From: Chrysochromulina parva
Lineage: Eukaryota; Haptophyta; Prymnesiales; Chrysochromulinaceae
NCBI GenBank assembly: GCA_002887195.1
Contig: PJAB01000404.1
Location: 1 to 27,597 of the forward strand
DNA: 27,597 nucleotides
Direction of reading: 5' to 3'
The first letter of the stretch is position 1. Each line of letters begins with the position of its first letter. The notes under the pieces were generated by a model. It saw only the letters and a list, made by a program, of their open reading frames with translations, did not search any database and had not been told where the DNA came from. Below, piece after piece: positions 225 to 24,984 of the stretch. A program made the position numbers and the translations under genes.

Positions 225-1460
225 ATGGCGCCGCGTCTTCTGACCGTCGTGCTTGCGGCGACATGCGCCCTCGCCGCGTCGCAAACGAACCAATCCGCGT
301 CGCAAACGAACCAATCGACAAGCGCATCGCAAACGAACCAATCGACAAGCGCGTCGCAAACGAACCAATCGACAAGCTCGTCGCAAACGAACCAATCGAC
401 AAGCGCCACTTCCGCCCCTCCTCCCTCCTCCCCTCCGACGCCCCCCCTCCCTCCGTCGCCGCCGAGCGACCCACCATCGCCGCCGAGCGCACCCCCAGCA
501 CCCACCACGGACATCATCCTCTGCCGCACTCCTCAGGAGTGCGGCATCATTCAGGAACCCGCCAACTGCGGCAGTATCGGCGGCCAGGTGCGGGTCGGCG
601 ACGAAGTGACTCTCTGCATGGGCTTCCAGCCATCCAACGGCAGTGCCGCCAACGGCGGCAAGGTGCTCTTCCGCGTCAAGGTGGACTCCTTCTCGAAGCT
701 GCGCGTCGACACACGTGCGCGCGCGCCGCCCCTCCCCCGCACACGCCACCGCTCTGCAAGCGCCCGTGTTGCGCACGTGCGTCCCGGCCTCGCTTTCGCG
801 CTCGACCTCACGCGTATAAGCGCATGTGTCCCCCGGCTGCTCTCGCGTCACCCCGCAGTGCGATCGCTCATGGGTGAAGTGTGGAGCCCGCTCAAGCACA
901 AGTACAGCTCGATGTGGGTGGGCCTCAACGGGCGGCGCACCATCGGCCAGCATGCCGGCGTGGTGACGGGCCCGGGTACATGTAATGCCACCGCGGCTCT
1001 TCAAGGCGACCCCGGGAAGCGTTGCTATGGATGGATCACCCACAACAAGCCGGTCATCACGGAGGATTTCGACCTCTCGAATGGGCTCACGGCCATCGTG
1101 CACCTCGAGAAGGGCGTTGTCAACCGGATCGTGTGGGATAGCAGCTGCAACCTGTGCAAAGCCAGATCCACTGTTGTGACGTGCCTACACGACCGCACCG
1201 ACATTGTGTGCCCAGGTGGCGAACAATGCAAGGACTGTTACGCGCGCATCCCGCAAAACGGCTGCACGAGCGAGAGCGAAGTGTGCGCGCCCCACGTCTA
1301 CGTGGCGTGGCTCGGCACGGACAGAATGGGCACGCCGATGCTCAGCGCTGGCTCGGTGCTCTCGCGCTTCGCTGAAGGCTCCTTGGCCCAGTTTGGGGAT
1401 CAGCTGTACGAGGACATCCAGGAGCTTGGCCAATCGTGCAGGGCTGCAGAGAGGTGCTAA
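225..1460 (+). CDS. Secreted Cys-rich protein with NQS repeats and Pro-rich linker
   Basis: Family not recognised. The frame starts at an ATG with a clear signal peptide (residues 1-18, basic start, hydrophobic core, ALA before the likely cleavage). Residues 19-61 are five SQTNQS-type repeats, each with an N-glycosylation sequon. Residues 62-93 are a Pro/Ser/Ala linker like those of algal wall glycoproteins. The remainder holds about 15 cysteines, including CNLC, CKDC and paired single Cys, which suggests disulfides in a secreted or cell-surface protein. A 48-residue Arg/Pro/Ala-rich stretch (about 164-211) is unlike the rest and is better explained as an intron (715-858) that happens to stay in frame; spliced length would be 363 aa against 411 unspliced. 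The exact function is unknown. Gene existence is well supported by the signal peptide, the repeat phase and the Cys pattern. Confidence 0.75.
   Translation: MAPRLLTVVLAATCALAASQTNQSASQTNQSTSASQTNQSTSASQTNQSTSSSQTNQSTSATSAPPPSSPPTPPLPPSPPSDPPSPPSAPPAPTTDIILCRTPQECGIIQEPANCGSIGGQVRVGDEVTLCMGFQPSNGSAANGGKVLFRVKVDSFSKLRVDTRARAPPLPRTRHRSASARVAHVRPGLAFALDLTRISACVPRLLSRHPAVRSLMGEVWSPLKHKYSSMWVGLNGRRTIGQHAGVVTGPGTCNATAALQGDPGKRCYGWITHNKPVITEDFDLSNGLTAIVHLEKGVVNRIVWDSSCNLCKARSTVVTCLHDRTDIVCPGGEQCKDCYARIPQNGCTSESEVCAPHVYVAWLGTDRMGTPMLSAGSVLSRFAEGSLAQFGDQLYEDIQELGQSCRAAERC
279..407 (+). repeat. Tandem repeat encoding SQTNQSTSA units
   Basis: Five units: one of 21 bases, then four of 27 bases, nearly identical at DNA level (core TCGCAAACGAACCAATC). 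The unit is a multiple of three, so copy-number change would keep the frame. Each unit carries one NQS sequon. Confidence 0.95.
715..858 (+). other. Probable in-frame GT-AG intron (144 nt)
   Basis: GT at 715-716 follows the codons for VDT, and a pyrimidine-rich tract ending CCCCGCAG stops at 858. Joining 714 to 859 keeps the frame (C plus TG gives Leu, then RSLMGEV). The length, 144, is divisible by three and the segment has no stop, so retention would insert 48 residues. Its translation is Arg/Ala/Pro-rich and lacks the Cys/Gly character on either side. There is no transcript evidence; this is an inference. Confidence 0.55.
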
Positions 1461-1802
1461 ACCGCGCCCTTCTGTCCGTGGCGTGACGAGGAGCTCTGCA
1501 CCGAGTCATGATGCGCCAGCCTCAGCATGTGACCATGTGTGTGCCGTGCTGGATGACTCGCTGGTTTTACGACGTCGTCGTGTGCGTCTGTGCGTGGCCG
1601 TGTGCGAGCAGCGACTCTGTGCGTGTCGTTGTGGCCTGTGGCTCTCGTTTTGCATCGTTCCGGGGGACGGGTGGTCTTTTTTGTTGAGCTCTGTCTCCGA
1701 GCGCAGGGCACAGTGTTTTCGCATGTGAGGATGTGGGTCCGAGTCGATTTTTAATATTTTACTGAAGATATTTGGCTGTCGGTCCTCGGCACCTCCACCA
1801 TC
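1461..1802. other. Intergenic, no gene seen
   Basis: This is the 3' flank of the secreted-protein gene and the 5' flank of the SDR gene. It contains GT-rich sequence without coding character and an AT-rich patch at about 1748-1771 (TTTTTAATATTTT), about 40 bases before the SDR ATG, which may be a core promoter element. No RNA gene or conserved motif was recognised. Confidence 0.5.
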
Positions 1803-3056
1803 ATGGTGTTCTCTAGCCTACACCTAGGATTCCTACGGATGACATTCCTACGGATGACACCGAGCTCCCGCGTCCCGGGACAGGACCACCTTGACGCACT
1901 CATGAGCCTTAACAACATGCACACCGCAATTCACATCAAGGGCTTCGTTGCAGATGGCTTCGTTCACGCCTCTTCGAAAAACATGCACGCATCTGTCGCA
2001 ATCCTGGGTCTCTCTGCTGCAAGCGGTGTCGTCCTCGGGCCCAAGTCAACGAGCAGCGATGTGTTAGCCAAGTTCCGTGAAACCGGTTTCGCCCTCGGAC
2101 CCAAGTCAACGGGCAGCGACGTCCTGGCCAAGTACCGTGCCAAAGGCCTTCCACCATACGTCGAACGGGGAGGCACCGCAGTAGTGACGGGGGGGAATTC
2201 GGGACTCGGCTTGCAGTCCGTCGCAGTTTTGCTTAAGGCCGGGTGCCGTGTCGTGCTGTGCTCTCGCGATGCGAACGCGGGACGGGCCGCACTCGCATCA
2301 CTCGAGGGTGTCGATACCTCACGGGCTCGGGTGCAGCAGCTCGACCTCGCTGATCTGAACTCGATCGCGGCGGCACACAAGGAAATTGCCGAGACGGAGA
2401 GGTCCATCTCGTTGCTACTGAACAATGCTGGCGTCATGGCGTGTCCGCAGCAGCAGACCAAGCAAGGCTTCGAGCTGCAGATCGGCACCAACCACATCGG
2501 CCACTTTGCCCTCACCCGCCTGCTCCTGCCCTTCATGGAGCCCGACGGCCGCGTCGTGACAGTTGCGTCGATTGCCCATGGCATGGGGGAAGTCGACGCG
2601 TCCGACCTCGACTTTGTGCGGCGCAAGTACACCAAGTGGGGGGCGTACGGGCAGAGCAAGGGCGCCAACATCCTCTTCGCCAAGGGCCTCGCGGACGAGC
2701 TGCTCAAGGCAAACTCAGAGATCGTGAGCGTGTCGCTGCATCCTGGCGTGATCGCCACGCCGCTCTGGCGCCACGGCAACTTTTTGGCGACGTGGCTGAT
2801 CAGCAAGGTATACTGCGACAAGGACGAGGCGCAAGGCGCGTCGACGCAGCTCTATGCCTGCCTTGCGCCCGCCGAGGCTCTGCCGGCCGGCGCTTATTTG
2901 ATGGACTGCGCCCTCGCCATGCCAAACGCCGCGTGCGCTGATGAGACGGGGAAGGCGCGGAAGGCCCTGTGGGAGGAGACCGAGCGTCGCATCGCGGCGG
3001 CAGGCCTCGCGCTGCCCAACACGCTGCTTGGCGGCGCAGGCAGCTCGCCGCAGTGA
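1803..3056 (+). CDS. Short-chain dehydrogenase/reductase, TIC32/retinol dehydrogenase-like
   Basis: Classical Rossmann-fold SDR using NAD(P)H. The nucleotide-binding motif TGGNSGLG is at residues 129-136, NNAG at 207-210, the structural Asn in GTNHIGHF at 230, catalytic Ser at about 256 and the YGQSK active site with Tyr282 and Lys286. LLNNAGVMACP and SLHPGVIATPLWRH resemble plant TIC32 and animal retinol dehydrogenases/WWOX, so the substrate may be a retinoid, sterol, lipid or pigment-like carbonyl; the sequence does not fix it. The core starts near residue 122. The 120-residue leader is unusual: it contains a duplicated 20-residue segment and a mildly hydrophobic stretch (about 61-78) after Met61 (position 1983). 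It could be an organelle leader or translation could begin at an internal Met. A cytosolic or plastid-envelope site are both possible. Confidence 0.9.
   Translation: MVFSSLHLGFLRMTFLRMTPSSRVPGQDHLDALMSLNNMHTAIHIKGFVADGFVHASSKNMHASVAILGLSAASGVVLGPKSTSSDVLAKFRETGFALGPKSTGSDVLAKYRAKGLPPYVERGGTAVVTGGNSGLGLQSVAVLLKAGCRVVLCSRDANAGRAALASLEGVDTSRARVQQLDLADLNSIAAAHKEIAETERSISLLLNNAGVMACPQQQTKQGFELQIGTNHIGHFALTRLLLPFMEPDGRVVTVASIAHGMGEVDASDLDFVRRKYTKWGAYGQSKGANILFAKGLADELLKANSEIVSVSLHPGVIATPLWRHGNFLATWLISKVYCDKDEAQGASTQLYACLAPAEALPAGAYLMDCALAMPNAACADETGKARKALWEETERRIAAAGLALPNTLLGGAGSSPQ
2034..2153 (+). repeat. Tandem duplication in the SDR leader
   Basis: Two adjacent 60-base copies (2034-2093 and 2094-2153) encode LGPKSTSSDVLAKF... 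and LGPKSTGSDVLAKY.... They differ at several mostly synonymous sites, so the duplication is not brand new and the peptide appears to be kept. Confidence 0.85.
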
Positions 3057-3236
3057 TTGTGATACGGATGAATGGTTTTTCTTCTTTTGTCACTTATTAT
3101 AGTTCCATATGTTGAGAGTTTTTGAGAGCAGAGGCAACCCCTACTGACTTACCGGTACTTGCATGCACCACGACGCATCTTTCATGAAGAACAGAGTTTG
3201 GATCGAGACCTACCGAAAAGACAGTACTTGCCGTAG

Positions 3237-6200
3237 ATGTGGCAGCACCCGGCCGTGCTACCGCGCTGGACGGCACCACTGCCCCCACCCGAAATGACCA
3301 ACGACATCATCATCGTTATCCCAACGCTCGACGTGCATGTGGGCCCGAAAGCCACTGCAGAGCCACTTGCCGCCACCCTGCCAGAGGCCGGTGCAACGAC
3401 CCCCGCTGCCAAGGCCTCAAAGCGGCAGCACGGCACGGGTCGGCACAGCAGCCCGGCGTGGCCGCCTCCGAGTGGTCGCAGCAGCAGCAGTAGCAGCCTC
3501 GCCAAGCCCGGGCTCGCCCGTTCCCAAACGAGCATTGTCCTCAGCGTCAGCAACCACGCTTCCGCTACAGGTGCGCGTGTAGGCCTGAGCGCGTGGGACA
3601 CGAGCGACTCGCCACGAGCGAGCTTCCGCGCGCGAGCTGCCACGAGCGACTCGCCACGAGCAAGCTTCCGCGCATCCGCGCACCCGGCGCGCACATCGCC
3701 AAAGAAGCAGGGCAGCAACAGCGCTGTCGGCAAGCCGAGCGGAGTTCGTCGACGCAGCACCGGAGCCAAGCGTGACGGCGGTGCGGAGCCGCAGCCCTCG
3801 GCAGCCGCGGCTGTCGACCCGCACGTGCGCTGCGCGATGCTGCTGGACGAGCTCATGCGCCACCGCGCGCCGCGAGCGCCGCCGCCCGCGTCGATCGTGC
3901 CCAGTGCCGCCTGGGCCACGCTCGACATAAGTGATGGGTGGGTGAGCTTCGAACAACTATTGATACAGCTCAACAGCGCGGCGCTGCACGAGCTCGTCAT
4001 TGGCCCCCCCGAGCAAGTGCGCGCGCCGCCCTGCGCATCAGACGCGCCCGTGTACACCGAGGCGATGCTGCGCGACGTGCTCGCCACGTACGAACATGGA
4101 CTTGTCATGGGAAGGTCATCCCTCGCTCCGCCGGTAGCGTGGTCCCACAGCGGTTCGTCGGAAGCCGCAGCGGCGGCCGGTGGAGTGCTGGCGGCCGCGT
4201 CGATGGCCGCCGGGCCTGCAGCGGCCAGTTTGTCAGGCGGCGGCAGCGGAGCGCTACTGCGTCCCGATCTGCAATTCCAATGCAGCGTCGGTGAGGCGCT
4301 CGCAGCGCCCTCGATCGTGGCGAGCCAGTTTTATCGGCCCTTTGATGGCCTTGGCCGCCGAGATGCTAAGCTCTTGATGCCTACTAGGACCAATGAGGTG
4401 GCGGCTGCCTTTGGCTGGCCGCCGGCGGCTAGCGAGCCTCGCACGCTCCCGACGATCGGGATCGGCAGCCGAGGAAGCGTGAGGGCGCCGAGCCCTCTGT
4501 CTGCTGCGCGCGCTCCAGAGCGTGCCGTGCATGGATGGTATGGTGAGCAGCTGCCGAGGATCCTTCGTGGCGGGCTCACACGCATGCTGCGTCATCGGAC
4601 GCCCCTCGTGCGCACGCCGCTCGAGCGTGCGGCCGAAGCAGCTGCCCGCGCCAGCGGAGGACTCGAACGCGGCACGCATGCGGGCCGGTGGCGACCTGTG
4701 GGGAAGGGATCAGGCGCCGTGGTGAGCACTTGCATGCTGGGCGAGGAGGAACGCGGCCCGCATGCGGGCCGAGGCAGCGGCAGAGCGGCTAGCAGCTTCA
4801 GCAGCAGCTTCAGCAGCAGCTTCAACAGCAGCAGCTTGAGCAGCAGCAGCAACCTTGCTGCCGCCGAGGCGTCCGTTTATTACGACGAGGAAAACGGGCT
4901 GCTACTGCCTTCACGTGAGAGCGATGCGGCTGAGGCAGCTGCGGCGATGTCGGCAGAGAGGAACGTCGACCGCGGCAGCAAGCAGCTCCCCTTTCGTCCC
5001 TATGACACGTTTGTGTGGGTCGATGTCCACCGCGCGATGGCCGATGGGATCGTCTTCTGGCAGGGCCGCATCGAGGGGCAGCTGCTCTGCGATGGCGTGG
5101 AAGGCGATGGTGTGCTTCCCCCAGAGTACATCAGCCTCGTGATTGAGTGCAACGGAGGTCTGATGCTCGATTGGGTGATGATCCATCTGCTCGAGCAGCT
5201 CTTCCGGCACTGCGCCCGACTCGAGCTGACCTTACTGCATCAGTGCCAATCACACGCCGCCATCGCACCCGACACTGCTGCTGCCGTCGCTTCCACCGCC
5301 ACCGCCACCACTGCCGCCTCCGCCGCTGCGTTGGCTCCGCTCTTCTTCGTGCGTGCTGCGAGCTTCGATGCACAGGGTGCACCGTACGAACCAGTGCTGG
5401 CGATGCTCGGGGAGGCTGGCGTGCTGCTGTCCGAGACCGAGCGCATCCGGTCGCTCGGGATCACCATCGGAATGGATTCGGCCATCAAGGTGGTGCGCGG
5501 GCCGCTCTTTGCAGCCGTCGATGGCCGACGGCTCGACGGCAGCGCCGCCACGACGGCTGAGACGCTACGTAGGGCTGGAGGGCGCGGCAGCTGCGGCGGC
5601 GCGGTGCTCAGTGTGACCAATGCGTGTTGGGCGCTGCCTGAGTACCACACGCAGTTACTCGAGCGCGCCCAGCTTCTTTCCTCGTTCCAATCCATGCTCA
5701 AGGCATGCAGCGCACTGCAGCCGCCCGTGCCACAGCACTCGCGCCAGCATCCGTCAAACTCCTTCAACGCCGGCGGCCATGGTGCGGGTGGCAATCGCAA
5801 TGCCAACGGCCAGGGCGGCGCCCTCGGCGGGCGGCAAGGAGGCCTTCATGGCAACTCCGCCCTCGCCTCAGCTGATCCCATCACCTCTGACAATCCCGCG
5901 CCTGGCGCTGGCCAGCATGCTAGTGGCAGTCGAGGACGCGACGGAGCAGGCACCCCATTCCCTCCAGCCACTCCGGAAGGGCTCGAAGCCATCCTCCGCG
6001 AGCTCTGGGGCGCTGGCGGGCCGCTCAACAACCTAGCCATGGCGGGTCCCCGGCGTGCTAACGTGGCTTCCACGAGCACTGGTGGGCTACTTGACGTCGA
6101 GGCACACCGACTGGCCGGACTCCTGGCGGCGCTCTTCCGGCCACCACCGCCGCCCTTAAGCTCGATCAGCTCGGCTGAGCCACCTGAGTGGCCGCAGATG

Positions 6201-9200
6201 CCTGAGGCGTTGCGGGCGTGCCTGATGCAGCTGGCCTCCGAGACGGGCGCTACCGGTACTTGCGAGACGGATCACCGCATACGGATCCGCGCTGACGGGC
6301 ACGTGCAGTGCCCTGCCCACCTCGACGTCGCGGCGAGCGCCTCGAGCTTCGCCTTCGTGGCCGAGGCGGACGAGATCGGCGAGATCGCATGTTCACCGTT
6401 CGTGGAGCTACTGCAGCTGCTGCACCGCCTGCGGCAGCCCGAGACCATGAGGTTGCTCACTCCAGCCGCAACACCGCGCGGCTGGTCAGCGGCAGTGTCG
6501 GGTCAGCTGCAGCATGCGATCTACACTGACGGCGCGCCCGCTGGGATCACGTCGCCCGAGGGGTCGCCCCAAAGAGGCCATGCCGCGCATCGTGGCGGCA
6601 GCGCAAATGCGCTCAGCCCTCGCGTGCTCGCTACCTCGCTGGCCAGTAGCAGCCTCCTATCGTCACGCCTCGTGCCTCCCAGGTCGCCTCAGAGCTCAGG
6701 GGGCGTTGCACCGGACGCTCACGCCGTCGCCACCGCCGCCACCGCCGCCGCCACCGCCGCCACCACTGCCACCGCCACCGCCGCCGCCGCCGCTGCTGCG
6801 GCCGCCACCGCTGCATCGCAGGCCGCTTCAAACGCTGCGTACATGGCCGCTGCTGCAAGGGCCACGCTACTGTCCCTCGGCGACGACGACGACGACGACG
6901 AGCTCCTGGCGTTTGGATCTGCATTCGGCCGCAGTTCACCAGCCGTGCTGGCACCTCCGACGCCGGCGTCCCGGACGCTGCCGATGCCGCCCCCACCGCC
7001 GCCGCCACCGCCGCTGCTACCAGCGCTCACGCTGCCGGTGCCCCCTCCAATCAGCAGTGCGGCCGTGGTGAGGGGATCTTTTGAATCCTCACCACGGCCT
7101 TCCCTTTTTGGACGATCCTCACCTTCCCTTCCAAGACGCTCTCCTCGCTCCCGCTCCTCACCGTCGCCCTCTCCGAGATCCTCTAGCCCACGACAGTTGC
7201 TCTCCCCCCGCAACCTGCGGGCCGCCAACGCCACTCCGCGCCAGCGCCCATGCACCATCGGCGTCGGCAGCGGCAGCGGCGATAGCGGGATCTCCACCCA
7301 AGCGCGCGGGGAGAAGCTTTCCCCTCGCACGGATAGCAACAGGAGTGCCCACGACAGTACGGGCTCGCGCGTGCCACCCTCCTCCTCCTGGCTTCACGGC
7401 TGGCGGCCGCTCGAGGTGCCGCAGCACGGCAGCTTGTGCTCCTCGGCCATCCTCGCCGACGTGCGCGGCATGGTATGGCTCCTCGACTTCAGCGCTGCAG
7501 ATCTGCCCGCGACGAGCCCGCTGCTCGATGCGGCCTCGCTCGTGTGCGAGATGCTGCTCGAGTGGCAACCGGTGCCACTCGAGCTCTCCGAGCTCCGCGG
7601 CGCCTCGGCGCACGAGCTCTGCGAGCAGTTCCAGCTGAGTGAGGCGGCGGCCGTGCGCTTGCGCTTGCACCTCCGAGAGTGCGAGAGCATCGGCGCCCTG
7701 CACGCCGGCTGTGCGAACGATGATGAGCTGTGGGGAATCTTGCCGAGGATCGCAGACGAGAAAGGCAGCCTGAGACGCTTGCAAGAGGCCACTGCCGTTG
7801 TGGACGCCCTGCTTGCTGACAGCCCTGCCACAGCCGAGGAGAGCAAACAGCCAAGCACGGAGGACAAGAGCGCTCATGTCCGCGCGGAGCATGGGGGCAT
7901 GCAAGTCGATGCATCCCCTGCAGCTGCTCGACGGCGGATGGCAAATGCATGCGGCAGCAACGGGCCAGTGAACACAACGGGCGGCACCAGCAGCACAACG
8001 CCTCAGCTCTGGAAGCTCGGCCATCGCTCACCCCCTGCCGAGTGGACAGCGCACGCTCAGCATTGCTTCAAGCTCTGCATCACGGTGCTCTCCCTCGCCA
8101 CCGAGCTGACTGCCAAGAGCTCGCAGGCAGAGGCGCTCGCGGCGGAGCTCGCTCGTGGCTCTTCCCTCCCGGAGCCTCCCCCTGGTACCCACTGCGAGTC
8201 CTCCGCTACATGCAACCCGAGCGACCTCCACATTGCCAACCTGCTCTTCCCGATGCTGGGTGGTGCGCTGCGTCGGCTACTGCTGCCCACACTCGGCAAG
8301 TGGCAGAAGCGCCTCGCGTGGCACATGGCGCGCTCCATCGCACAGATGCTGCACACAGCCCTGCACACACCGCCCACAATCCCGCCCGAGCTCGGCACGG
8401 TGCGACGGCAAGAGGTGCGCTTGGCCGCAGGGCAGAGGGTCGCCGTGCTCGGCGACCCAGAGTCGCGGCTTGCGGGCTCCGAAGGCTCGACGAAACTCTG
8501 CTCCGTGGTAGCGCACGTGGGCGAGCAGGAGGAGGGCGGCGGCAGCGTGTCACTCGACCGCCAGCTCACCAGAGGTGGCGGCATCCGTGCCTCGGACCCG
8601 TCGGCACCGCCATCCATGGCGCTTCCGGAGGCCCATCCCGCGCTGACAAAGCCGCAGACGGCCCGGCCACTTTTTGGCGACACAAGCGTCGAGCATAGGT
8701 TGACACTTGATGGATTGAGCCATGCAGTCTTGCCCTGGCACGTGCCGCCGGCCGATGCCATCGAGGCGGTGCTTGCAGACACGCGCATAAGTTACGGCGT
8801 GCTGCAAGAGCTCGTCAGCTTGGTGACGATGATCCCACCTGCCGACGGCGCGATCGCGGACGAGGCAAAGGGCGGCGGTGGCATGCAACGCACGCCCAAG
8901 CGTATGATCAAGGGTGGTAACGACGAGAGCGACGATGATGACGATGAGCGAAGCGATGGTCGAAGGGGCGGCAAGAGCGGGGGCAAGAGCGGCGGCGAGA
9001 GCGGCGGGTGGACGGGCCCAGGGACGCATGCCAAGATTCGCGAGACATCGGATGCGATCTGCCGCGAGCTCACGAGGCTGCAGAACGCGTCGGAGCCGCT
9101 CCGCTTGCCGATCGTATCCCTCATTGAGCGCATCAGAAAGGCCAAGGCCGACGCGGCCGACGCTCTCACACAGGCGAATCTTGCAGAGGGGATGGCGACG

Positions 9201-12200
9201 GCGGCCAAGGAGGAGGAGGTGGCGGCCATCGAGCGTGCGGAGCAGCGGAGAGCCTCGGCCAAGGTTGCCGAGAAGCAGGCAGCGGCGGACGAGGAGAAGG
9301 CGGTCGCCGCACGGAACGAGCGCGATGTGGCCGAGGCCAAGGCGCGTGAGCTCACAGCTGCTGTCACCAAGGCGGCCGAGATGGGCGCCAAGCTGGGTGC
9401 CGGCGCGCCCAAGCGCGGCGGTGGGTTCAACATGGCTGCAATGAAGGCGGACGAGGCGGCCAAGGCGGCGCAGGCGGCGCGCGAAAAGGTGAGTGCCGCG
9501 CAGATGGCGGTCGAGCAGACGGTCCTGATGGCGCACGCGATATGTGAAGTCGCCACCAGCGCCGAGCAGGCAGCCGCTAAGGCGACTGCAGCGAAGGAGA
9601 GGGCGCTCGCGCACGCGGCGGCGGCGCACACGGCCGCGTCCATCGGAGTGATCCACGCGGCGCTCATCGTGGCAGTGACCGTCGACCGACGCGAGCTCGA
9701 GAGAGTGGTGGAGGCGTGGGCGTGGCAGCGGCTTCGACAGACAGGCGCAGCGGGCGTGAGAGCCTATGCGGCTGGGCAGCGTCTCATGGTGCGCATCGAT
9801 GGGCGGGCGGGTGGGGTCAGCACGTTGAAGGCGAGCGAGGCGGGAGCCGACGTCAAGGCGACGACGGCGGCGGCAAAAAAGGGCGAACGCCATGTCGCCG
9901 CGCCCCCCCGCACCAACGCAGGCTGCCCTGATATCGTAGCGGGGCCCGGTGACACGTGGGTCGACGCAACCGTGATGGCTGCTCCAGAGGCGAGTCGCCC
10001 GATGAGGGAACACGTCGTCCGTACAGCGGACGGGCACGAGCTGTCGCTCGTGCTCAATCCATGGAACCACGGGCCGCTCGACCTGCCCACCATCAGGTTC
10101 GACCACGTGCGCGCCCGACACGCGCGCACGATGCGCGTGCAGCATGCAACCCTCGTCGATGGTCTCTCTGGCCGTCGACTCGATGTGCTTGAGCAGTGCG
10201 TGCCCATTGAGATCGTCATGGAAGAAGCGGGGACTACCTTGTTTAGGGATCGACAGCGGGCAGCAGCCGCCACGACTGCCTCCACTACCGCGCCCGCCTC
10301 CTCCTCTTCTGCTGCACCCGAAGCAGGCTCGTGGGCTTCAGCCGCCCAGGCAACAGCGGGGGCATCGGAGCAGGCGGGGAAACGTGGGTTGTGGGGCCTC
10401 CTGCACGCTGCCACCGCCTCCGGCGTGCGGGGAGTTCCCAGTGACTATAGTGATGAGGTCGAGAGCGTTGTGGATGTCACGAGCCTTGCTGCGTGGCTCC
10501 AAGCGGCCCACGCGACGCGATGCCGCGCGGCCAACTCGCGCCGACCAGCGTGCGTGCTGCTCACGGCGGGCCCGTATGAGGGTAAGACGTGCCTACTCTC
10601 GCAGCTGGTGACAGGGATGATCCGTGACGAGCAGTGCGCTCTCGTGCCCATCCTCGTGCGCTCGCACGAGCTCGAAGCGAAGCTGAGCCAGCCGCGCAGC
10701 CGGACACTCTTTGCGCATTCGTGGAATTGGGTCGATGCGTTCTTGCAGAGCGAGTACGGCGCGGGTACCGACATCTATCGATTCTTGCGCCAGGCGATGC
10801 TCGCGAGGCGTGCGCTTCTGCTCATCGATGGGCTCGACGAGGGTGGCACGGCGCGCGCCGCCATCGAACGCCACATCGTCGACGTTCTCGCTCCACAGGG
10901 CCACACGATGGTGGTGACGTCGCGCCCGGCGGGGCTTCGGGTGGACCTCTTCGCGGAGCACTTTGTGCGGCTGCGCCTCGCCCCTCTCTCTGACTCACAG
11001 CAGCTCGAGGTCATTCAACGGCGCGTGGGTGGCAAGCTAGCTGTGAGCGGCGTGGCGGGCAGTGGCGGCGTGGCAGGCGGTGCTGCATCCAGCGCCGGTG
11101 CGGCCGCCGGCAGCGCGGTTCTGGAACGATACCTAAGGGACAAGGTGCCGATCGATCTCGAGACTGGCCAGCGAGTCTCCGGAAATCCGTGGATGCTCTC
11201 GGTGGTCCTCACCATCTTCCAATCGCGCCAACCGTTCTCCCAGGCCAAGCGCGATGGGATGGCCAAGCGCGTCGGCGGCGGCAACGTCAGAGCGGACGGA
11301 GGTGCCGAGGCCGCCGAGCTGATCGATGCGATGCCCACCACGGTCACCTTGTATGACCTCGCGACTCGTTCTGTGCTTGAGCGCGAGGGACTGATCGTCG
11401 CACGCGATTGCCATGTGGCCACGATGAGCGGCGCCAGCGGTGTCAGCGCTCGTGGTCTTGGCGTCAGTGATGGCAGCGCCACAACCGCGGCCGCCACGGC
11501 GTCCTGCGCAGAGCAGGTGGATGGGTTGCAGAGCTCTGCTTCCGAGACCGGCAACGAGGCCGCCCTCGCTCAGCTCGGCGCGCTCCTCCAAGCGACCTTC
11601 TTCGAGGCGCATGCAATGCAGCGGCGCGTCATTGACGAAACAGTCCTAGATGAGGCGGCACTCGGGCTGGTGCGGCCCAACGTGCTCCATGCCATCCGAG
11701 CGGACATGGCTCCGTTTGAGGGACGCGCTGAGCCGGGCCATTACGTCGAGGTGCTCGCCGGCCCGTGCGTGGGCAAGCGTGGCGTCGTGAGCGCCCGCCC
11801 GTTCCGTGTGCGCTTCGTCGACGGCACGAGCAGTGAGGAGCTGCGCGAGAGCGACTTCCGCTCGTCGGGCCTCGACGAGCAGTCAGGACGTGCTTTTGAG
11901 GCAAGGCAGCGGCAGCAGCGGCGGTCGGCGGTACGTGCGGCGTGCGAGCAGCTTCCAATCGTGACGCGCGAAGCGCTCCGTGCGATGCGCGTGCGCGTGA
12001 CGCAGGACAGGCTGCCTCTGCTCAAGCTGCTTCAGCTCGAGCCGCTCCAGATGCAATCGTCACACCTCTCCTTCCAAGAGTACTACACTGCGTGCGCCCT
12101 CTGCCTCGGCCGCCGGCTGCCCGCGAGCGCTGCCGCGCCGTGGCGTTGGGACGCATGGTGGCGCAACACGCTGCTACTCGGCATGGAAATGGGCGAGGCC

Positions 12201-12944
12201 TTTGGGCGAGGGTTACTCATGGCCGTGGGCGAGAGCGCCGAGCTGCTGGATCTGAACAGCAAGATCGCAGGAGATCGGCCGACGAGCCTGCTCGCGATCT
12301 CGCAGCTGCTGCTGGGGTGCGCCTCAGTCGCACTCGCGCACAACACGCTCGTGCCACACGAGGCGCTGCCGCTCGCCGAGGGCCTCAGGGCGAGCACGTC
12401 GCTGCTCAAGCTCAACCTCGCGTCCAACCATTTGTGCGGCGTCTGGTTCGACAATGGGCGCTTTGAAGGCGAATACTCTCCCATGGGCATCGGCGCCTTA
12501 GCGGACGCGCTGGTGGCCAACAGCTCGCTCACTACCCTTGACCTGAGCCAGAACTGTCTTGGGGTAAGTTACATCAACGGAGTGCGAGCCGCCTCCATTG
12601 AAGGCATCAGCCTCGTCGCGCAGGCAGCAAGCGCGAGCCGCTCGCTGCGCGAGCTCAACGTGAGCTACAATGGCATCGGGCCGCAGGGGGGCAAAGCCAT
12701 CGGAGACGCCTTTGGCGGCAGCGCCACGCTTACGGCGCTCGATATTGGCGGCAACATCATCGGGCTCAAGGGCGGCAAGGCTGTCGCCGAGGCGTTGCGC
12801 ACCAACGCAGCCTTCGTCTTCGTCGATGTGCGCTTCAATTCACTGGACGAGGCCACGAAGGCGCTCCTCGTCGAGGTCGCGGATGAGCGCGCGGCCGGGA
12901 GCGGGATCGAGAGGAAAGCTGCGGTCAAGGTCCTCCTCGACTGA
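3237..12944 (+). CDS. Giant NLR-like protein: Tpt1/KptA-like domain, coiled coil, NACHT NTPase, LRRs
   Basis: One uninterrupted frame of 3235 codons. Seen in order: a Tpt1/KptA-like RNA 2'-phosphotransferase signature in pieces, with R208-H209, DGWVSFEQLL at 233-242, Arg293, HGW at 432-434 followed by LRGGLTRM (443-450), Arg587 and VWVDVHRAMADGIVFW leading to LPPEYI (about 593-632); a segment HGS...VWLLDF (His1397, Asp1417) resembling degenerate aminoglycoside-phosphotransferase-like folds; long Ala/Ser/Pro-rich linkers; a charged coiled coil (about 1955-2140); a domain with NPWNHG (2274-2279); NACHT with Walker A GPYEGKT (2445-2451), Walker B LLLIDGLDE (2527-2535) and sensor TSRP (2561-2564); a NACHT-type helical region with GNPWML (2649) and SFQEYYTA (about 2945); a KOW/SH3-like insert GHYVEVLAGPCVGKRGVV (2834); and RI-type LRRs (about 3056-3220). 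The family fits a STAND switch with effector and sensor. Met20 (3294) is an alternative start. Introns within the low-complexity linkers cannot be excluded. Confidence 0.88.
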   Translation: MWQHPAVLPRWTAPLPPPEMTNDIIIVIPTLDVHVGPKATAEPLAATLPEAGATTPAAKASKRQHGTGRHSSPAWPPPSGRSSSSSSLAKPGLARSQTSIVLSVSNHASATGARVGLSAWDTSDSPRASFRARAATSDSPRASFRASAHPARTSPKKQGSNSAVGKPSGVRRRSTGAKRDGGAEPQPSAAAAVDPHVRCAMLLDELMRHRAPRAPPPASIVPSAAWATLDISDGWVSFEQLLIQLNSAALHELVIGPPEQVRAPPCASDAPVYTEAMLRDVLATYEHGLVMGRSSLAPPVAWSHSGSSEAAAAAGGVLAAASMAAGPAAASLSGGGSGALLRPDLQFQCSVGEALAAPSIVASQFYRPFDGLGRRDAKLLMPTRTNEVAAAFGWPPAASEPRTLPTIGIGSRGSVRAPSPLSAARAPERAVHGWYGEQLPRILRGGLTRMLRHRTPLVRTPLERAAEAAARASGGLERGTHAGRWRPVGKGSGAVVSTCMLGEEERGPHAGRGSGRAASSFSSSFSSSFNSSSLSSSSNLAAAEASVYYDEENGLLLPSRESDAAEAAAAMSAERNVDRGSKQLPFRPYDTFVWVDVHRAMADGIVFWQGRIEGQLLCDGVEGDGVLPPEYISLVIECNGGLMLDWVMIHLLEQLFRHCARLELTLLHQCQSHAAIAPDTAAAVASTATATTAASAAALAPLFFVRAASFDAQGAPYEPVLAMLGEAGVLLSETERIRSLGITIGMDSAIKVVRGPLFAAVDGRRLDGSAATTAETLRRAGGRGSCGGAVLSVTNACWALPEYHTQLLERAQLLSSFQSMLKACSALQPPVPQHSRQHPSNSFNAGGHGAGGNRNANGQGGALGGRQGGLHGNSALASADPITSDNPAPGAGQHASGSRGRDGAGTPFPPATPEGLEAILRELWGAGGPLNNLAMAGPRRANVASTSTGGLLDVEAHRLAGLLAALFRPPPPPLSSISSAEPPEWPQMPEALRACLMQLASETGATGTCETDHRIRIRADGHVQCPAHLDVAASASSFAFVAEADEIGEIACSPFVELLQLLHRLRQPETMRLLTPAATPRGWSAAVSGQLQHAIYTDGAPAGITSPEGSPQRGHAAHRGGSANALSPRVLATSLASSSLLSSRLVPPRSPQSSGGVAPDAHAVATAATAAATAATTATATAAAAAAAAATAASQAASNAAYMAAAARATLLSLGDDDDDDELLAFGSAFGRSSPAVLAPPTPASRTLPMPPPPPPPPPLLPALTLPVPPPISSAAVVRGSFESSPRPSLFGRSSPSLPRRSPRSRSSPSPSPRSSSPRQLLSPRNLRAANATPRQRPCTIGVGSGSGDSGISTQARGEKLSPRTDSNRSAHDSTGSRVPPSSSWLHGWRPLEVPQHGSLCSSAILADVRGMVWLLDFSAADLPATSPLLDAASLVCEMLLEWQPVPLELSELRGASAHELCEQFQLSEAAAVRLRLHLRECESIGALHAGCANDDELWGILPRIADEKGSLRRLQEATAVVDALLADSPATAEESKQPSTEDKSAHVRAEHGGMQVDASPAAARRRMANACGSNGPVNTTGGTSSTTPQLWKLGHRSPPAEWTAHAQHCFKLCITVLSLATELTAKSSQAEALAAELARGSSLPEPPPGTHCESSATCNPSDLHIANLLFPMLGGALRRLLLPTLGKWQKRLAWHMARSIAQMLHTALHTPPTIPPELGTVRRQEVRLAAGQRVAVLGDPESRLAGSEGSTKLCSVVAHVGEQEEGGGSVSLDRQLTRGGGIRASDPSAPPSMALPEAHPALTKPQTARPLFGDTSVEHRLTLDGLSHAVLPWHVPPADAIEAVLADTRISYGVLQELVSLVTMIPPADGAIADEAKGGGGMQRTPKRMIKGGNDESDDDDDERSDGRRGGKSGGKSGGESGGWTGPGTHAKIRETSDAICRELTRLQNASEPLRLPIVSLIERIRKAKADAADALTQANLAEGMATAAKEEEVAAIERAEQRRASAKVAEKQAAADEEKAVAARNERDVAEAKARELTAAVTKAAEMGAKLGAGAPKRGGGFNMAAMKADEAAKAAQAAREKVSAAQMAVEQTVLMAHAICEVATSAEQAAAKATAAKERALAHAAAAHTAASIGVIHAALIVAVTVDRRELERVVEAWAWQRLRQTGAAGVRAYAAGQRLMVRIDGRAGGVSTLKASEAGADVKATTAAAKKGERHVAAPPRTNAGCPDIVAGPGDTWVDATVMAAPEASRPMREHVVRTADGHELSLVLNPWNHGPLDLPTIRFDHVRARHARTMRVQHATLVDGLSGRRLDVLEQCVPIEIVMEEAGTTLFRDRQRAAAATTASTTAPASSSSAAPEAGSWASAAQATAGASEQAGKRGLWGLLHAATASGVRGVPSDYSDEVESVVDVTSLAAWLQAAHATRCRAANSRRPACVLLTAGPYEGKTCLLSQLVTGMIRDEQCALVPILVRSHELEAKLSQPRSRTLFAHSWNWVDAFLQSEYGAGTDIYRFLRQAMLARRALLLIDGLDEGGTARAAIERHIVDVLAPQGHTMVVTSRPAGLRVDLFAEHFVRLRLAPLSDSQQLEVIQRRVGGKLAVSGVAGSGGVAGGAASSAGAAAGSAVLERYLRDKVPIDLETGQRVSGNPWMLSVVLTIFQSRQPFSQAKRDGMAKRVGGGNVRADGGAEAAELIDAMPTTVTLYDLATRSVLEREGLIVARDCHVATMSGASGVSARGLGVSDGSATTAAATASCAEQVDGLQSSASETGNEAALAQLGALLQATFFEAHAMQRRVIDETVLDEAALGLVRPNVLHAIRADMAPFEGRAEPGHYVEVLAGPCVGKRGVVSARPFRVRFVDGTSSEELRESDFRSSGLDEQSGRAFEARQRQQRRSAVRAACEQLPIVTREALRAMRVRVTQDRLPLLKLLQLEPLQMQSSHLSFQEYYTACALCLGRRLPASAAAPWRWDAWWRNTLLLGMEMGEAFGRGLLMAVGESAELLDLNSKIAGDRPTSLLAISQLLLGCASVALAHNTLVPHEALPLAEGLRASTSLLKLNLASNHLCGVWFDNGRFEGEYSPMGIGALADALVANSSLTTLDLSQNCLGVSYINGVRAASIEGISLVAQAASASRSLRELNVSYNGIGPQGGKAIGDAFGGSATLTALDIGGNIIGLKGGKAVAEALRTNAAFVFVDVRFNSLDEATKALLVEVADERAAGSGIERKAAVKVLLD
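3599..3682 (+). repeat. Tandem 42-nt repeat near the start of the giant gene
   Basis: Two 42-base copies beginning CACGAGCGACTCGCCACGAG, at 3599 and 3641, encode TSDSPRASFR twice. The repeat lies in a Ser/Arg-rich linker before the Tpt1/KptA-like domain. Confidence 0.85.
4794..4852 (+). repeat. AGC/TTC-rich low-complexity tract (polySer)
   Basis: Interrupted AGC repeats encode SSFSSSFSSSFNSSSLSSSS. It lies inside the insertion that separates the HGW motif from the C-terminal half of the Tpt1/KptA-like domain. Confidence 0.85.
6718..6830 (+). repeat. GCC-type triplet tract (polyAla/Thr)
   Basis: GCCACC/GCCGCC repeats encode an Ala/Thr run in a linker of the giant protein. A short GAC run (about 6882-6900, polyAsp) and a CCGCC-rich polyPro tract (about 6988-7017) follow. 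Confidence 0.85.
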
Positions 12945-14577: not shown

Positions 14578-16557
14578 CTAGACCTGTTCATCGATCATGT
14601 CAAAGCGACACTCGATCAGCCCAGCAATCGGGCCTCGGCAGGTTGGGCAGATTGTCACTCGCGCGGATCCACGCAGACACGTGCTGCAGAACATGGCATG
14701 CATGCACGGCATGAGCACAATGTCGCGCTTGCGTTCCATGCAGATGCAGCACATCCGGGCCTCTTCAAGGACGCTCACGCGCAGCTGCAAATCCGAGCAG
14801 CGTTGCATTAACTCTTTCACGCGCTGTTGCAGAGAGGCGTTTTGCCCTCGAAGCTCGGCAATCTCTGCAGATTCTGCCGCCTCGAGATCTGCGTAGACGT
14901 CACCATCGTACTCCTCCACGCCACCATGCCTGGCTTCAGAGAGTACACGTCGAGCATCGTCGGGTGCGAGGCCAAGTCCGACGAGCTCGTTGGGCGTCAT
15001 GAGTTCAATCGTCTGCAGGTTGATGCCTTGGCTGTCAAGAAACTCGTAGATAGCGTCAAGACTGCTTGCCACGTCAGAGTCAGTTCGCGTGAACTGCGAC
15101 GCATGCTGCCATGCAGCTGAGGAGCTTGGTCTCACCAGATGCAGTGCATGGACCCTATGGATGATGCCTGCAACTCCAGCTGTCTCGGACACGTGAAAAG
15201 CAGCAGGACACGCCTTGAGGTATACGACTAAGCGGAACGTCTTGATTGTCTTGCGAAGGCGCAGGCCCAGCTCGAGCTGTCCAACGAGCGTGACCACTTC
15301 AATGCCGCCTGGTCCGGCTGCTTGAACAAGGTCGAGGACCGCTGGGTGTGGCTGTTGCATAGGTTGCAGCTCTTCTCCGGGTAAGTGCAAATTCCTATTT
15401 GACGTCAGCCAAACGATCAAAGGATCGTCGGTACTCTCAATCGGTGCGGCCTCGAGCCATCCGCCGCCGGAGACGTTAGGGTCATTCTGAAACCAGAGGC
15501 GCCCGCGTGCCTCAGCGTGGCCGCAAAGATACTCGAGCTTCTTGTTCGCCGGGAGCACAGAGCGGTCTACCGAAGGGTGCGCGGCGTAGAAATCGCCGAG
15601 CTGCGCGGCAGTCACGCGCTGCTCGCCCCTGGTCCGGATCCACGCGCATAGCAGCGTGACGAACTGGTCGATGCCCGAGTTTCCCGCGGCGGTCGATTCC
15701 GCAGGCATGGCAACGCGTGTTGCACCAAAATCGGTGATAGCGGCAGCACCGGCATTCACGATACCTGTGCTCACCGAGTGGTCCTGTGATGCGACCGGTG
15801 CCGGAGGCCTTGGATGCGGGATCTGACCGGCGTGCACGCTGACAAACTCCTTGAAGCTTCCGTAATGTAATCGCAGGGCCTGTGCCAGCCTTGGCTCAGA
15901 AGAGCCAAACATGCCACCAATGCATGCTATCCATCGGTCATATCCGTCCCTTGCCGCCTCACGCACGGTCTCACTTTTGTTCAACCGGCCCACCAACTCA
16001 ATAAGCTGGCGCTTCCTCCATGCAGGAATCGGTGGCCTCGCGCCACCATCCTGCGTGGGGTGGTGCTGCAGCGAAGCACTGCTGAAGAGCGGCGGTGACT
16101 CTGACCGCGTGCCTGCGGTGACCCAGGAGTCATCGTCCACGAGTTTGTTCCCTGCGACTTTAAGACCGAGGGCACGGATGCACTGAGCGGCACAGTCCGC
16201 TTTGGCTTCTGACTTTTGTGGATGTCCATCGAGGTTGCAGAACTCAAGCGCGTGTTGATCTGGCCGTTGCAGAGCAACTGCGAACTGATAGCTTGGTGCT
16301 GAAAGAGCCGTTCTCGGCACGCGTAACTCGCTCGGCCCATGCGCAAATGGGCAGCGATCACCACGTGGGCATGGACCTATATGCGTGCACAGCCGCGTCT
16401 TGTACAATGGATGGGTCGGCTGTTGTTGAACAGGCTCTACGAGCAGGGATTCGAGGTCGCTTGAGTGTCCGCTCGGGTTCACGTCGACGTAGCTCACGCT
16501 CCAGCCAGGGCGCATTACGCAGTACTCGTGCAAGAGCGAGGCCAGCGACTTGGACAT
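14578..16557 (-). CDS. RNA-binding RING-type E3 ligase candidate (CCCH, dsRBM-like, SAM-like, RING)
   Basis: 659 aa from an ATG. A CCCH zinc finger (C57-x5-C63-x5-C69-x3-H73) lies within YKTRLC...CPFAHG. Residues about 86-132 resemble a dsRNA-binding motif, ending AKADCAAQCIRALGL. Two winged-helix-like regions follow: about 296-358 (FVTLLCAWIRTRG...LGDFY) and about 418-456 (IEVVTLVGQL...AAFHV), the second reminiscent of OST-HTH/LOTUS domains. Residues about 500-545 look SAM-like, about 565-600 form a coiled coil, and a C-terminal C3HC4 RING has C603, C606, C618, H620, C624, C627, C637 and C640. CCCH plus RING proteins in animals and plants bind mRNA and ubiquitinate partners, so an inferred role is RNA-guided ubiquitination or mRNA turnover. 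RING and CCCH are certain by motif; the dsRBM, LOTUS and SAM calls are weaker. The gene is convergent with the SAP gene. Confidence 0.88.
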   Translation of the reverse strand: MSKSLASLLHEYCVMRPGWSVSYVDVNPSGHSSDLESLLVEPVQQQPTHPLYKTRLCTHIGPCPRGDRCPFAHGPSELRVPRTALSAPSYQFAVALQRPDQHALEFCNLDGHPQKSEAKADCAAQCIRALGLKVAGNKLVDDDSWVTAGTRSESPPLFSSASLQHHPTQDGGARPPIPAWRKRQLIELVGRLNKSETVREAARDGYDRWIACIGGMFGSSEPRLAQALRLHYGSFKEFVSVHAGQIPHPRPPAPVASQDHSVSTGIVNAGAAAITDFGATRVAMPAESTAAGNSGIDQFVTLLCAWIRTRGEQRVTAAQLGDFYAAHPSVDRSVLPANKKLEYLCGHAEARGRLWFQNDPNVSGGGWLEAAPIESTDDPLIVWLTSNRNLHLPGEELQPMQQPHPAVLDLVQAAGPGGIEVVTLVGQLELGLRLRKTIKTFRLVVYLKACPAAFHVSETAGVAGIIHRVHALHLVRPSSSAAWQHASQFTRTDSDVASSLDAIYEFLDSQGINLQTIELMTPNELVGLGLAPDDARRVLSEARHGGVEEYDGDVYADLEAAESAEIAELRGQNASLQQRVKELMQRCSDLQLRVSVLEEARMCCICMERKRDIVLMPCMHAMFCSTCLRGSARVTICPTCRGPIAGLIECRFDMIDEQV

Positions 16558-16962
16558 GACTTGGGACCGTCACGATCCAGCCCCACAATTGCTGTCGACG
16601 GCGGTCGTGTGACGTGTGTCCTTTTTCGCCCCGACGTCGGTACCGGTACCGGAAAGCTCTGTGAATGTCACTGTGAATCATACTGAGCGGGGCAAGGTAC
16701 CGGTAGCCTGCATCCAGCCTTCTGTCCCTTACTTCGCCGCTGGCGACCGGTGGATCCCTTCTCTTCCCCCCCCCACGCGGTTGCCCAGGCAGCCGCCCTC
16801 GTACAGTAACCCCGCAGGTTCCAAGCCCGAAGCCGACCGCCGGCGTCATGTGCCATCGCACCGGCCTGTCCGATCCGCCGCACTACTGTGAATGTGAATA
16901 TCCGCCGCACTCCTGTGCGGCTGGCCGCATGCTGTCGGCGAGGCAATGCCAGTCAATCGGGC
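16558..16962. other. Intergenic, probable promoter of the RING gene
   Basis: 405 bases between the start of the RING gene and the 3' end of the Myb-like gene, both on the minus strand. It carries GGTACCGGTACCGG (about 16639-16652) and GGTACCGGTAGCC (about 16696-16708), two related KpnI/AgeI-type palindromic motifs. No coding character or RNA gene seen. Confidence 0.45.
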
Positions 16963-19638: not shown

Positions 19639-19765
19639 CGTTGATCTGATACAATGTAAGACAAACCGAGGGAGACAGTATTCGGACCGAAGAAGTTTCA
19701 CAGCCTATGTTTAGAATTCGACACCCACAGGGCGGGAGCGGAAGGCACTTTTGCGACGTGGCAAC

Positions 19766-21016
19766 ATGGCAATGTCGGTCGATAGCTCCGCAACGGCCTG
19801 CCTCAATCCGCGCCAGCGCATCGCGATCGGCGACCTTGTGATCGTGTACGAGGATTTCAAAACCCTGCACGCGGTGCGCGTCGCACCGCCGGCGAGATTC
19901 GACAGCCGCCACGGCTCCTTCCCTCACGCCGACTTTGTGGGCCGCCGCTTCGGCGAGCGCGTCTCTGAGCCACGCGGCCGCGGCGGGTTCGTGTACCTGC
20001 TCTCGCCGAGCCCGGAGCTATGGACGGCGACGCTGCCGCACCGCACGCAGATCCTCTACATCGCCGACATCTCGATGATTGTGCTGCAGCTTGAGCTGCA
20101 ACCAGGCAGGGTGTGCATCGAGGCAGGCACGGGCTCGGGCTCGCTCTCGCACGCGCTCGCGCGTGCGGTGGGCGCGCGCGGCCACCTGCACACCTTCGAA
20201 TTCAACGCGCACCGCGCCCAGCTCGCGGCCGCCGAGTTTGCCGCCAACGGGCTCGGCGGGCGTGTCACGTCGCTGCACGGCGACGTGTGTGCTGACGGCT
20301 GGGAGTACGCCAACACGGCGCATGGTTCGGTGGACGCGGCGATCTTCGACCTGCCGCAGCCGTGGGACGCGGTGCGGCACGTGGCTTCCTACCTGCGCCC
20401 GGGCGGCCGGCTCTGCACCTTCTCGCCCTGCATCGAGCAGATAGCTCGCACACAAGAAGCACTAGTTGCGTGTGGTTTCACTGGCATAGAGGTGATCGAA
20501 GTGGTTGTACGGACGCATGCAGTGAGCCAGCAGCAGGGCGGGGACGCGTCCTCCGCGCTCGCGCTCGCGCTCGCCCAGGGCGCTCGGGCCGCCATGGCCT
20601 CCGCCGCCCAGGCAGCCTCCGCCCCTGCCGCTCTCCAGCCGAGGACCTCGGAGGCGGCCATGGCGGCGGAGGCCATGGCGGCGGAGGCCATGGCGGCGGA
20701 GGCTATGGCGGCGGAGGCCAGTCCTGCCACGGCTGAGGGTGAGGGGGAGGCCGCGGCGGCGGCGGCGGCGGCGGCCAAGCGGCCACGGGTCGAGGACGGC
20801 GGCGACGACGACCTTGCACCGCCCGCGAAGGAGAGCAAAGCGTCTCCTGAGCCAGCAGCAACAGCAGCACCTCCGGCAGCAGAACCTCCGGCAACAGCAG
20901 CAGCAGCAGCAATACTGCCAAAGACGGCGCCGCCGGCGCAGCTATCGACACGACCGTACTCTGACATGCGAGGGCACACGGGTTTCCTCCTGTTCTGCTC
21001 AAAACACGTGGGGTAA
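19766..21016 (+). CDS. TRM61: tRNA (adenine-58-N1)-methyltransferase catalytic subunit TRM61
   Basis: Transfers methyl from S-adenosylmethionine to N1 of A58 in the tRNA T-loop, normally as a heterotetramer with TRM6 in the nucleus. The open frame reaches TTG at 19751; the first ATG is 19766 (416 aa), with another at 19772. Family marks: HADFVG (54-59), LLSPSPELWTATLPHRTQIL (78-97), the SAM-binding EAGTGSGSLSH (119-129) and the catalytic-loop DLPQPW (195-200). The C-terminus ends RPYSDMRGHTGFLLFCSK, as expected for the family. Between the methyltransferase core and this tail lies a roughly 130-residue low-complexity insert of Ala/Glu repeats, KRPR (likely nuclear signal) and Pro/Ala runs, so the protein is longer than typical TRM61. 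A TRM6 partner is not in the window. Confidence 0.95.
   Translation: MAMSVDSSATACLNPRQRIAIGDLVIVYEDFKTLHAVRVAPPARFDSRHGSFPHADFVGRRFGERVSEPRGRGGFVYLLSPSPELWTATLPHRTQILYIADISMIVLQLELQPGRVCIEAGTGSGSLSHALARAVGARGHLHTFEFNAHRAQLAAAEFAANGLGGRVTSLHGDVCADGWEYANTAHGSVDAAIFDLPQPWDAVRHVASYLRPGGRLCTFSPCIEQIARTQEALVACGFTGIEVIEVVVRTHAVSQQQGGDASSALALALAQGARAAMASAAQAASAPAALQPRTSEAAMAAEAMAAEAMAAEAMAAEASPATAEGEGEAAAAAAAAAKRPRVEDGGDDDLAPPAKESKASPEPAATAAPPAAEPPATAAAAAILPKTAPPAQLSTRPYSDMRGHTGFLLFCSKHVG
20660..20719 (+). repeat. 15-nt tandem repeat encoding MAAEA
   Basis: Four near-perfect copies of ATGGCGGCGGAGGCC within the TRM61 insert. Each copy is five codons, so expansion keeps the frame. Confidence 0.95.

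Positions 21017-24938: not shown

Positions 24939-24984
<46 letters not shown>

Follow-up and report, generated by a model that had tools for sequence, protein, structure and literature searches.

The window analysed here is a 27,597-nucleotide stretch of Chrysochromulina parva contig PJAB01000404.1 (C404; host assembly of 45 Mb in 2199 contigs), and it carries on the plus strand an open reading frame of 3235 amino acids (protein P0001). This protein is probably a decayed member of a small Chrysochromulina family of STAND receptors whose N-terminal head combines a KptA/Tpt1 domain (PF01885) with a TCAD9 kinase-like domain (PF19974). The first-pass annotation of this DNA had proposed a KptA-like domain and a NACHT-LRR region in one chain, which is borne out by the single 3235-residue frame without a stop, and it had missed the TCAD9-like domain lying between KptA and NACHT.

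KptA-TCAD9-NACHT loci in the assembly

The order KptA, TCAD9-like, NACHT was found at five loci, and in three of them (C404, C102 and C880) it is contained in one frame. The first-pass annotation had suggested searching for PF01885 together with NACHT, and in this genome the combination recurs at these five places. Four PF01885 matches in the assembly exceeded the cut-off, namely C558, C102, C587 and C842. Those of C558 (169.2 bits, E about 5e-50 to 1.2e-49) and C102 (106.7 bits, E about 4e-31 to 1.8e-30) are full-length, and that of C587 starts at profile position 72 in a frame that runs to the contig end. In C558 and C102 the catalytic tetrad and the HGT motif are intact by alignment (LLRH, QRFEL/CRFEL, HGT, MERHHIHL/MSRNFVHF, SGMR), and C558 matches the PDB tRNA 2'-phosphotransferase 1 with an E of 5.6e-30. 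C102 holds KptA, TCAD9-like and NACHT in one 2611-residue frame, its NACHT scoring 25.1 bits in hmmscan (cut-off 26.7) and 28.7 bits in the six-frame search. At C558, KptA and TCAD9 share a 1339-residue frame; matches to the linker, NACHT, post-NACHT and LRR regions come after it on that strand, and beyond them there is a second STAND-like match. The nearest paralogue, C587, is colinear (KptA, TCAD9, then on the same strand NACHT and post-NACHT matches that are 44-65% identical to the window), and its KptA N-lobe falls off the contig.

A paralogue HMM was built from five KptA domains (C558, C102, P0006, P0007 and P0010, of which C558 and P0006 are near-copies) and run over fetched loci rather than the whole assembly. 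It recognised a relic KptA in C880 (8.7e-6), in one frame with TCAD9-like and NACHT regions. The same frame (L019 1-7146, minus strand) also holds two repeated C2-like stretches, recognised by eye, and a long coiled-coil-like stretch. Altogether, five of the six KptA-like loci found lie upstream of TCAD9-like and NACHT regions, a count which derives from fetched loci and may miss decayed copies elsewhere in the assembly. The exception, C842 (L009 9365-9901, minus strand), is a fragment cut by the contig end (ISGMR...NGVILTPG) without TCAD9, and probably represents the end of a free-standing Tpt1. Outside the assembly, KptA with TCAD9 was seen in P0005 (100% identity), P0006 (92%) and P0007 (45%), the last being a fragment that starts inside the KptA RNA lobe. 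As each of the three protein searches scored only about 8000 candidates, those sharing most words, no claim of absence elsewhere is made.

The KptA-like head of the window protein

The head consists of the following segments:

3822..4091, plus strand: KptA RNA-lobe-like segment, residues 196-285, with R208-H209 and DGWV (shuffle tests against C102, C558 and P0010)
4092..4523, plus strand: insert 1, residues 286-429, of low complexity, where no third tetrad arginine can be made out (alignments)
4524..4610, plus strand: HGW...GGLTRMLRHRTPL segment, residues 430-458, with H432, R452 and P456 (PF01885 at 18.8 bits, ungapped C558 match, residue check)
4611..4946, plus strand: insert 2, residues 459-570, Ser/Gly-rich (alignments)
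4947..5159, plus strand: C-terminal part of the NAD lobe, residues 571-641, with R587, VWVDVHRAMADGIVFW and LPPEYI (paralogue HMM i-E 1.8e-7, shuffles)

All motifs named in the first-pass annotation are in place: R208, H209, DGWV at 233, HGW at 432, GGLTRM at 445, R587, VWVDVHRAMADGIVFW at 593 and LPPEYI at 627. Sequence comparison indicates that the N-terminus is homologous to verified KptA domains to a degree beyond chance. Taken alone the match is weak, but it is confirmed because intact paralogues exist in the same assembly. The paralogue HMM matches P0001 at E 3.9e-10; the match falls into two pieces that keep the order of the profile, of which the first is weak (i-E 0.65). In local alignments the NAD lobe scored 101 against C558 and 95 against C102, and no shuffle out of 2000 reached either value. 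The HGW segment, the counterpart of HGT...R121..VHL in KptA, was equalled by 0/2000 shuffles (C558) and 2/2000 (C102), and the N-lobe scored 50 against C102 (0/2000) and 46 against C558 (5/2000). For the C-terminal part of the NAD lobe, the count was 0/2000 with C558 as well as with C102. Similarity to the Symbiodinium KptA P0010 was weaker, with 35/2000 shuffles for the N-lobe, 3/2000 for the NAD lobe and 2/2000 for its C-terminal part; the HGW segment alone gave no signal against this protein (810/2000). A default PF01885 search of its own assembly did not list the window, and P0013, a relative of the window protein, reached 16.8 bits. No match to the window protein was returned by NCBIfam or PADLOC, the latter giving one weak match to P0002.

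In CthTpt1 the tetrad comprises R18, H19, R68 and R121, with HGT at 101-103, as described in the cited part of PMC6333775. Residues were mapped from alignment A1, the local alignments of the shuffle tests and the spacing from the HGT histidine; MAFFT alignments A2-A4 were dropped, since the long inserts had led them to misplace HGW, the following segment or the N-lobe. R208-H209 of the window fit R18-H19. R121 lies 20 positions after the HGT histidine, and the same distance from H432 leads to R452. Because of this spacing, and because the HGW segment aligns without gaps to C558, R452 rather than R587 is assigned to the fourth position of the tetrad. R587 lies close to the place of Cth R139, which belongs to the phosphate cage. 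The equivalent of R68, in its KxRF context, was not found in the window alignments. R293 has no alignable KxRF context, and in P0013, where the surrounding sequence diverges, another residue stands opposite it; a compensated frameshift was considered as the source of this difference and dropped. Moreover, HGT is replaced by HGW in the window and in C587 and by YGW in P0013 (where H432 is Y), and VHL by TPL in the window. Of the Arg-His-Arg-Arg set, only R208, H209 and R452 were identified. The statement of the first-pass annotation that the catalytic set seems present, with R293 and R587 among its members, does not hold, and its own caveat that the domain, stretched by low-complexity inserts, may be inactive is the better reading in view of the lost catalytic residues.

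The TCAD9-like, NACHT and leucine-rich repeat regions

The remainder of the protein contains:

5160..7586, plus strand: TCAD9-like (aminoglycoside-kinase-like) region, residues 642-1450, without catalytic residues (alignment with C558, C102 and C587, motif listing)
9834..10226, plus strand: pre-NACHT region with the conserved linker RTMRVQHATLVDGLSGRRLD (similar linker in C102, P0007, P0008 and P0009; tblastn on C558)
10545..11021, plus strand: NACHT NTPase with Walker A GPYEGKT (2445) and Walker B-like LLLIDGLDE (2527) (Pfam, residue check)
12243..12866, plus strand: leucine-rich repeat region (LRR_6 at 41.8 bits, cut-off 23.4, three stretches)

The TCAD9 region of the window aligns with those of C558, C102 and C587, but the window protein gave no PF19974 match (hmmscan, E up to 10), nor did C404 in a separate PF19974 search. 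Pfam scores (cut-off 40) were 57.2 bits for C558, 59.9 for C1122, 44.3 for C317 and, below the cut-off, 20.2 for C102. GFSG, TVTK/TVLK, HGDLN.AN and LIDF are kept in C558, P0006 and P0007. In the window GFSG is lost, TVTK has become LAML and HGD....N has become HGSLCSSAI, with the D of LLDF kept; C102 has TVLR and HGDLRPAQ, and C880 has HGNLCTAN. As far as seen, C404, C587 and C880 have lost the residues of both KptA and TCAD9, whereas C558, P0006 and P0007 have retained both sets; C102 is mixed, with a partly changed TCAD9. A tree of the TCAD9 region (13 rows) was not used for gain and loss: 3/10 inner branches were starred and long branches met.

The NACHT of the window scored 24.0 bits in hmmscan (cut-off 26.7) and 30.3 bits, over the cut-off, in the six-frame search. 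The NACHT Walker motifs and leucine-rich repeats reported in the first-pass annotation were found in place, with six-frame NACHT and LRR_6 scores over their cut-offs.

Gene model

The frame and the two stretches that a public gene model removes from it are:

3237..12944, plus strand: open reading frame, 3235 amino acids and stop, P0001 (uninterrupted frame, spanned by gene model P0012 and by the relative P0013)
4088..4921, plus strand: stretch spliced out by P0012, 834 nucleotides without in-frame stop (GT-AG after a one-base shift of the gap 4089-4922)
6551..7177, plus strand: second stretch spliced out by P0012, 627 nucleotides without in-frame stop (GT-AG after a one-base shift of the gap 6552-7178)

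P0012 (jgi/Chrpa1/.../Chrysochromulina_OHIO) is 100% identical to the window protein over the queried region, and its introns, both of a length divisible by three, correspond to residues 285-562 and 1106-1314. In 4088..4921 the codon score was 0.019 for frame 0 and -0.19 and -0.24 for the other frames; in 6551..7177 the coding signal was weaker, frame 0 leading by a small margin (-0.091 vs -0.236 and -0.131). P0013, 87% identical to the window protein over the queried region, keeps a frame of 3269 amino acids through the same stretch. We think that 4088..4921 is coding rather than intronic, because frame 0 scores best there and because the HGW segment, which lies inside the first intron of P0012, is homologous to KptA. 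If the stretch were spliced, the KptA domain would very probably be non-functional.

Window surroundings and other STAND proteins

The window offers an ordinary eukaryotic neighbourhood:

1755-3053, plus strand: short-chain dehydrogenase
14581-16569, minus strand: RING/CCCH protein
19715-21013, plus strand: GCD14-type tRNA methyltransferase
24514-26436, minus strand: protein kinase

Elsewhere in the alga, C317 (L013 1784-6766, minus strand) encodes in a 1661-residue frame NUDIX (21.0 bits, cut-off 21.1), TCAD9 (44.3) and NACHT (28.1) matches, and by these matches is another putative nucleotide-acting head on the same TCAD9-NACHT core. C649 (L023 2-8809, minus strand) joins CHAT to nSTAND/NACHT in a single frame, and DUF4062 occurs with NACHT at two loci (L024 and L028). 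L010 (7318-9903, minus strand) and L012 (1082-6547, plus strand) end in similar peptides, RWPLMASDGL and GWPLIASGRVSI, possibly a shared inserted repeat.

Discussion

The comparison of near relatives bears on whether the KptA head of the window copy is under constraint or in decay. Between the window protein and P0013, the KptA segments are identical at 170/190 positions (81/90, 23/29 and 66/71), the inserts left out of this count at 124/144 and 94/112, NACHT with LRR at 349/357 and all aligned positions at 2886/3200; the KptA segments differ from NACHT with LRR at a Fisher p of 6e-5. In the C558-type pair P0006 and P0005 (1177/1263 overall), KptA is identical at 212/218 and the rest at 965/1045 (p 0.007). 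Hence the KptA head looks relaxed in the window copy and constrained in the C558-type copies.

Several observations weigh against a decayed family member. The window protein reaches only 18.8 bits with PF01885 (E 1.7e-3, cut-off 26), at residues 421-458 only, so that the profile check proposed in the first-pass annotation yields a match, but one below the cut-off; the 3.9e-10 comes from the paralogue HMM. In their conservation the KptA segments do not stand apart from the remainder of the window protein (p 0.71), their last segment is on its own 66/71 identical to P0013, and the comparison of relaxed and constrained heads relies on one near-relative pair each, at the protein level. P0012 removes the HGW segment as an intron, the order of domains is spread over several same-strand frames in C558 and C587, and C587 has TVTV, with no TCAD9 catalytic loop found in the frame examined. 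The middle of the window TCAD9 is 118/121 identical to P0013 (N-part 24/28, C-part 57/63), which counts against a TCAD9 devoid of all function, and an immune role is suggested by architecture alone. The AlphaFold model of the window KptA region (7 rows; mean pLDDT 40.4, pTM 0.19) decides nothing: because the unambiguous KptA copy, the KptA and TCAD9 region of P0006 (6 rows), was modelled as poorly (mean pLDDT 39.3), it says nothing against a KptA fold.

Could the window KptA nevertheless be an active NAD+-using effector that works in spite of its divergence and inserts, with an arginine at a shifted position standing in for the one not found? P0013 retains R208, H209, R452 and R587 as well as a 3269-residue frame, and its cluster counts 26 member sequences. 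However, no KxRF equivalent was found, HGT has become HGW (YGW in P0013) and VHL has become TPL, and the KptA segments are conserved no better than the protein average. According to the cited part of PMC6333775, the HGT motif contacts the ribose of NAD+, and a bacterial Tpt1 with a double alanine mutation in this motif was left with 4% product. An active enzyme in the window is therefore improbable. Even less credit can be given to a fusion created by accident of gene model or assembly, a chance frame in GC-rich DNA, which is strongly disfavoured. The GC content of 64-70% over the frame does favour long chance frames, and long antisense frames are present here (595 amino acids), but the same order recurs at five loci, the 3269-residue relative is 87% identical over the queried region, and in the four tested segments the codon score favours frame 0, narrowly in one of them, a fifth having served as the training set.

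A different proposal concerns function: KptA with TCAD9 may repair or modify RNA under a STAND regulator instead of acting as an immune killer. A phosphate written by TCAD9 (or by a partner) would then be removed by KptA with NAD+, in the manner of archaeal ArkI and KptA on tRNA U47. Each of the five KptA-NACHT loci has a kinase-like domain after KptA, C558, P0006 and P0007 keep both residue sets, a KptA gene adjoins a TCAD9 gene in the bacterial cluster L087, and a writer-eraser pair of this kind has been published (PMC9095486). On the other side, the bacterial adjacency was seen at only 1/78 TCAD9 loci, C102 has an intact KptA and a changed TCAD9, and TCAD9 as an RNA kinase or as kin of ArkI would be an argument from likeness. 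This proposal is possible, yet it is not the one we favour.

For the decayed family member, which we prefer, the proposed order from the N-terminus is a KptA/Tpt1 ADP-ribosyltransferase, a TCAD9 kinase-like domain, a linker, a NACHT switch and leucine-rich repeats. In intact members, the leucine-rich repeats would sense a ligand, NACHT would oligomerise, and the clustered KptA, together with TCAD9, would modify phosphate groups of RNA using NAD+, leading to an intracellular defence or RNA-repair response. What the first-pass annotation proposed, an effector that uses NAD+ and is governed by a STAND switch, is plausible for the copies with intact KptA residues (C558, C102, P0006 and, as far as the fragment goes, P0007) but is not supported for the window copy, in which both domains of the head have lost catalytic residues. 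Since these residues are lost from both enzymatic domains and NACHT, LRR and the TCAD9 middle are conserved, the window copy has most likely been retained as a receptor without enzymatic activity, be it a helper, a decoy or a regulator, or is losing its effector head. The 118/121 identity of the TCAD9 middle, with catalytic residues gone, would fit a kinase-like domain that is maintained for something other than catalysis.

A bolder and rather doubtful extension is that in C558, P0006 and P0007 receptor activation clusters a coupled TCAD9 kinase and NAD+-using KptA, the window protein acting as a pseudoenzyme regulator. TCAD9 would phosphorylate RNA or a nucleotide, and KptA would ADP-ribosylate it or remove the phosphate with NAD+. 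If true, such a head would equip an NLR with an effector that is complete in itself, burns NAD+ and modifies RNA, by a chemistry other than that of TIR. KptA/Tpt1 is widespread where its natural RNA substrate is unclear (cited parts of PMC6333775 and PMC8053099), and prokaryotic, fungal and human Tpt1/TRPT1 ADP-ribosylate 5'-phosphate RNA and DNA in vitro (PMC8053099, cited part). An intact KptA on a STAND receptor would place the enzyme under regulation and make a role in RNA ADP-ribosylation testable, and the series of intact, mixed, decayed and absent heads in one genome provides natural controls. Such a receptor would also add a new N-terminal head to the NACHT proteins described in the open-access PMC literature, in which, with subscription papers and preprints largely outside, no KptA-NACHT protein was found described; this agrees with the remark in the first-pass annotation that no KptA-NACHT-LRR protein was known to it.

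Compared with Tpt1/KptA proteins, of which C558 and C102 are clear members, the window protein has the same order of motifs (LRH, DGW, HG(T), GL..M.R, R.., WVD..A...G..F, LPP.Y) and differs in its score below the cut-off, the lack of an identifiable third arginine or HGT, two long inserts and the fusion to NACHT-LRR. TCAD9 is well represented by C558 (57.2 bits, cut-off 40; GFSG, TVTK, HGDLNAAN, LIDF), whereas the window has no Pfam match and keeps only two residue pairs, DF in LLDF and HG in HGS. Among 78 bacterial TCAD9 loci (flanks up to 4 kb, several of them truncated at contig ends), one had KptA alongside; a relative of its ADP-ribosylglycohydrolase-like neighbour occurred at this locus only, and a relative of its phosphatase-like neighbour in 62/78. 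In this cluster, L087 of Pleionea (724-5110, plus strand), ADP-ribosylglycohydrolase-like, KptA, phosphatase-like and isochorismatase-TCAD9 genes lie tightly on the same strand, the glycohydrolase and phosphatase names being a reading of the sequence and of the P0011 Pfam list; the link to the KptA-TCAD9 head is suggestive only. A viral origin was considered and rejected: a TCAD9 alignment run on viral contigs gave 39 pattern matches, of which none was confirmed. By analogy, the archaeal pair, in which ArkI writes and KptA erases the tRNA 2'-phosphate, may serve as a precedent in that a kinase and KptA share one RNA 2'-phosphate as their target, although there the two are separate proteins acting on tRNA U47 and ArkI belongs to COG2112 (PMC9095486, cited part). 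With NLR and STAND proteins, such as TIR-NLRs and bacterial NACHT proteins, the window protein shares a central NACHT with Walker motifs, C-terminal leucine-rich repeats and a putative N-terminal effector. TIR and KptA both consume NAD+. The head itself sets the present proteins apart, for it consists of KptA and a kinase-like domain in place of TIR, CARD, PYD or a nuclease.

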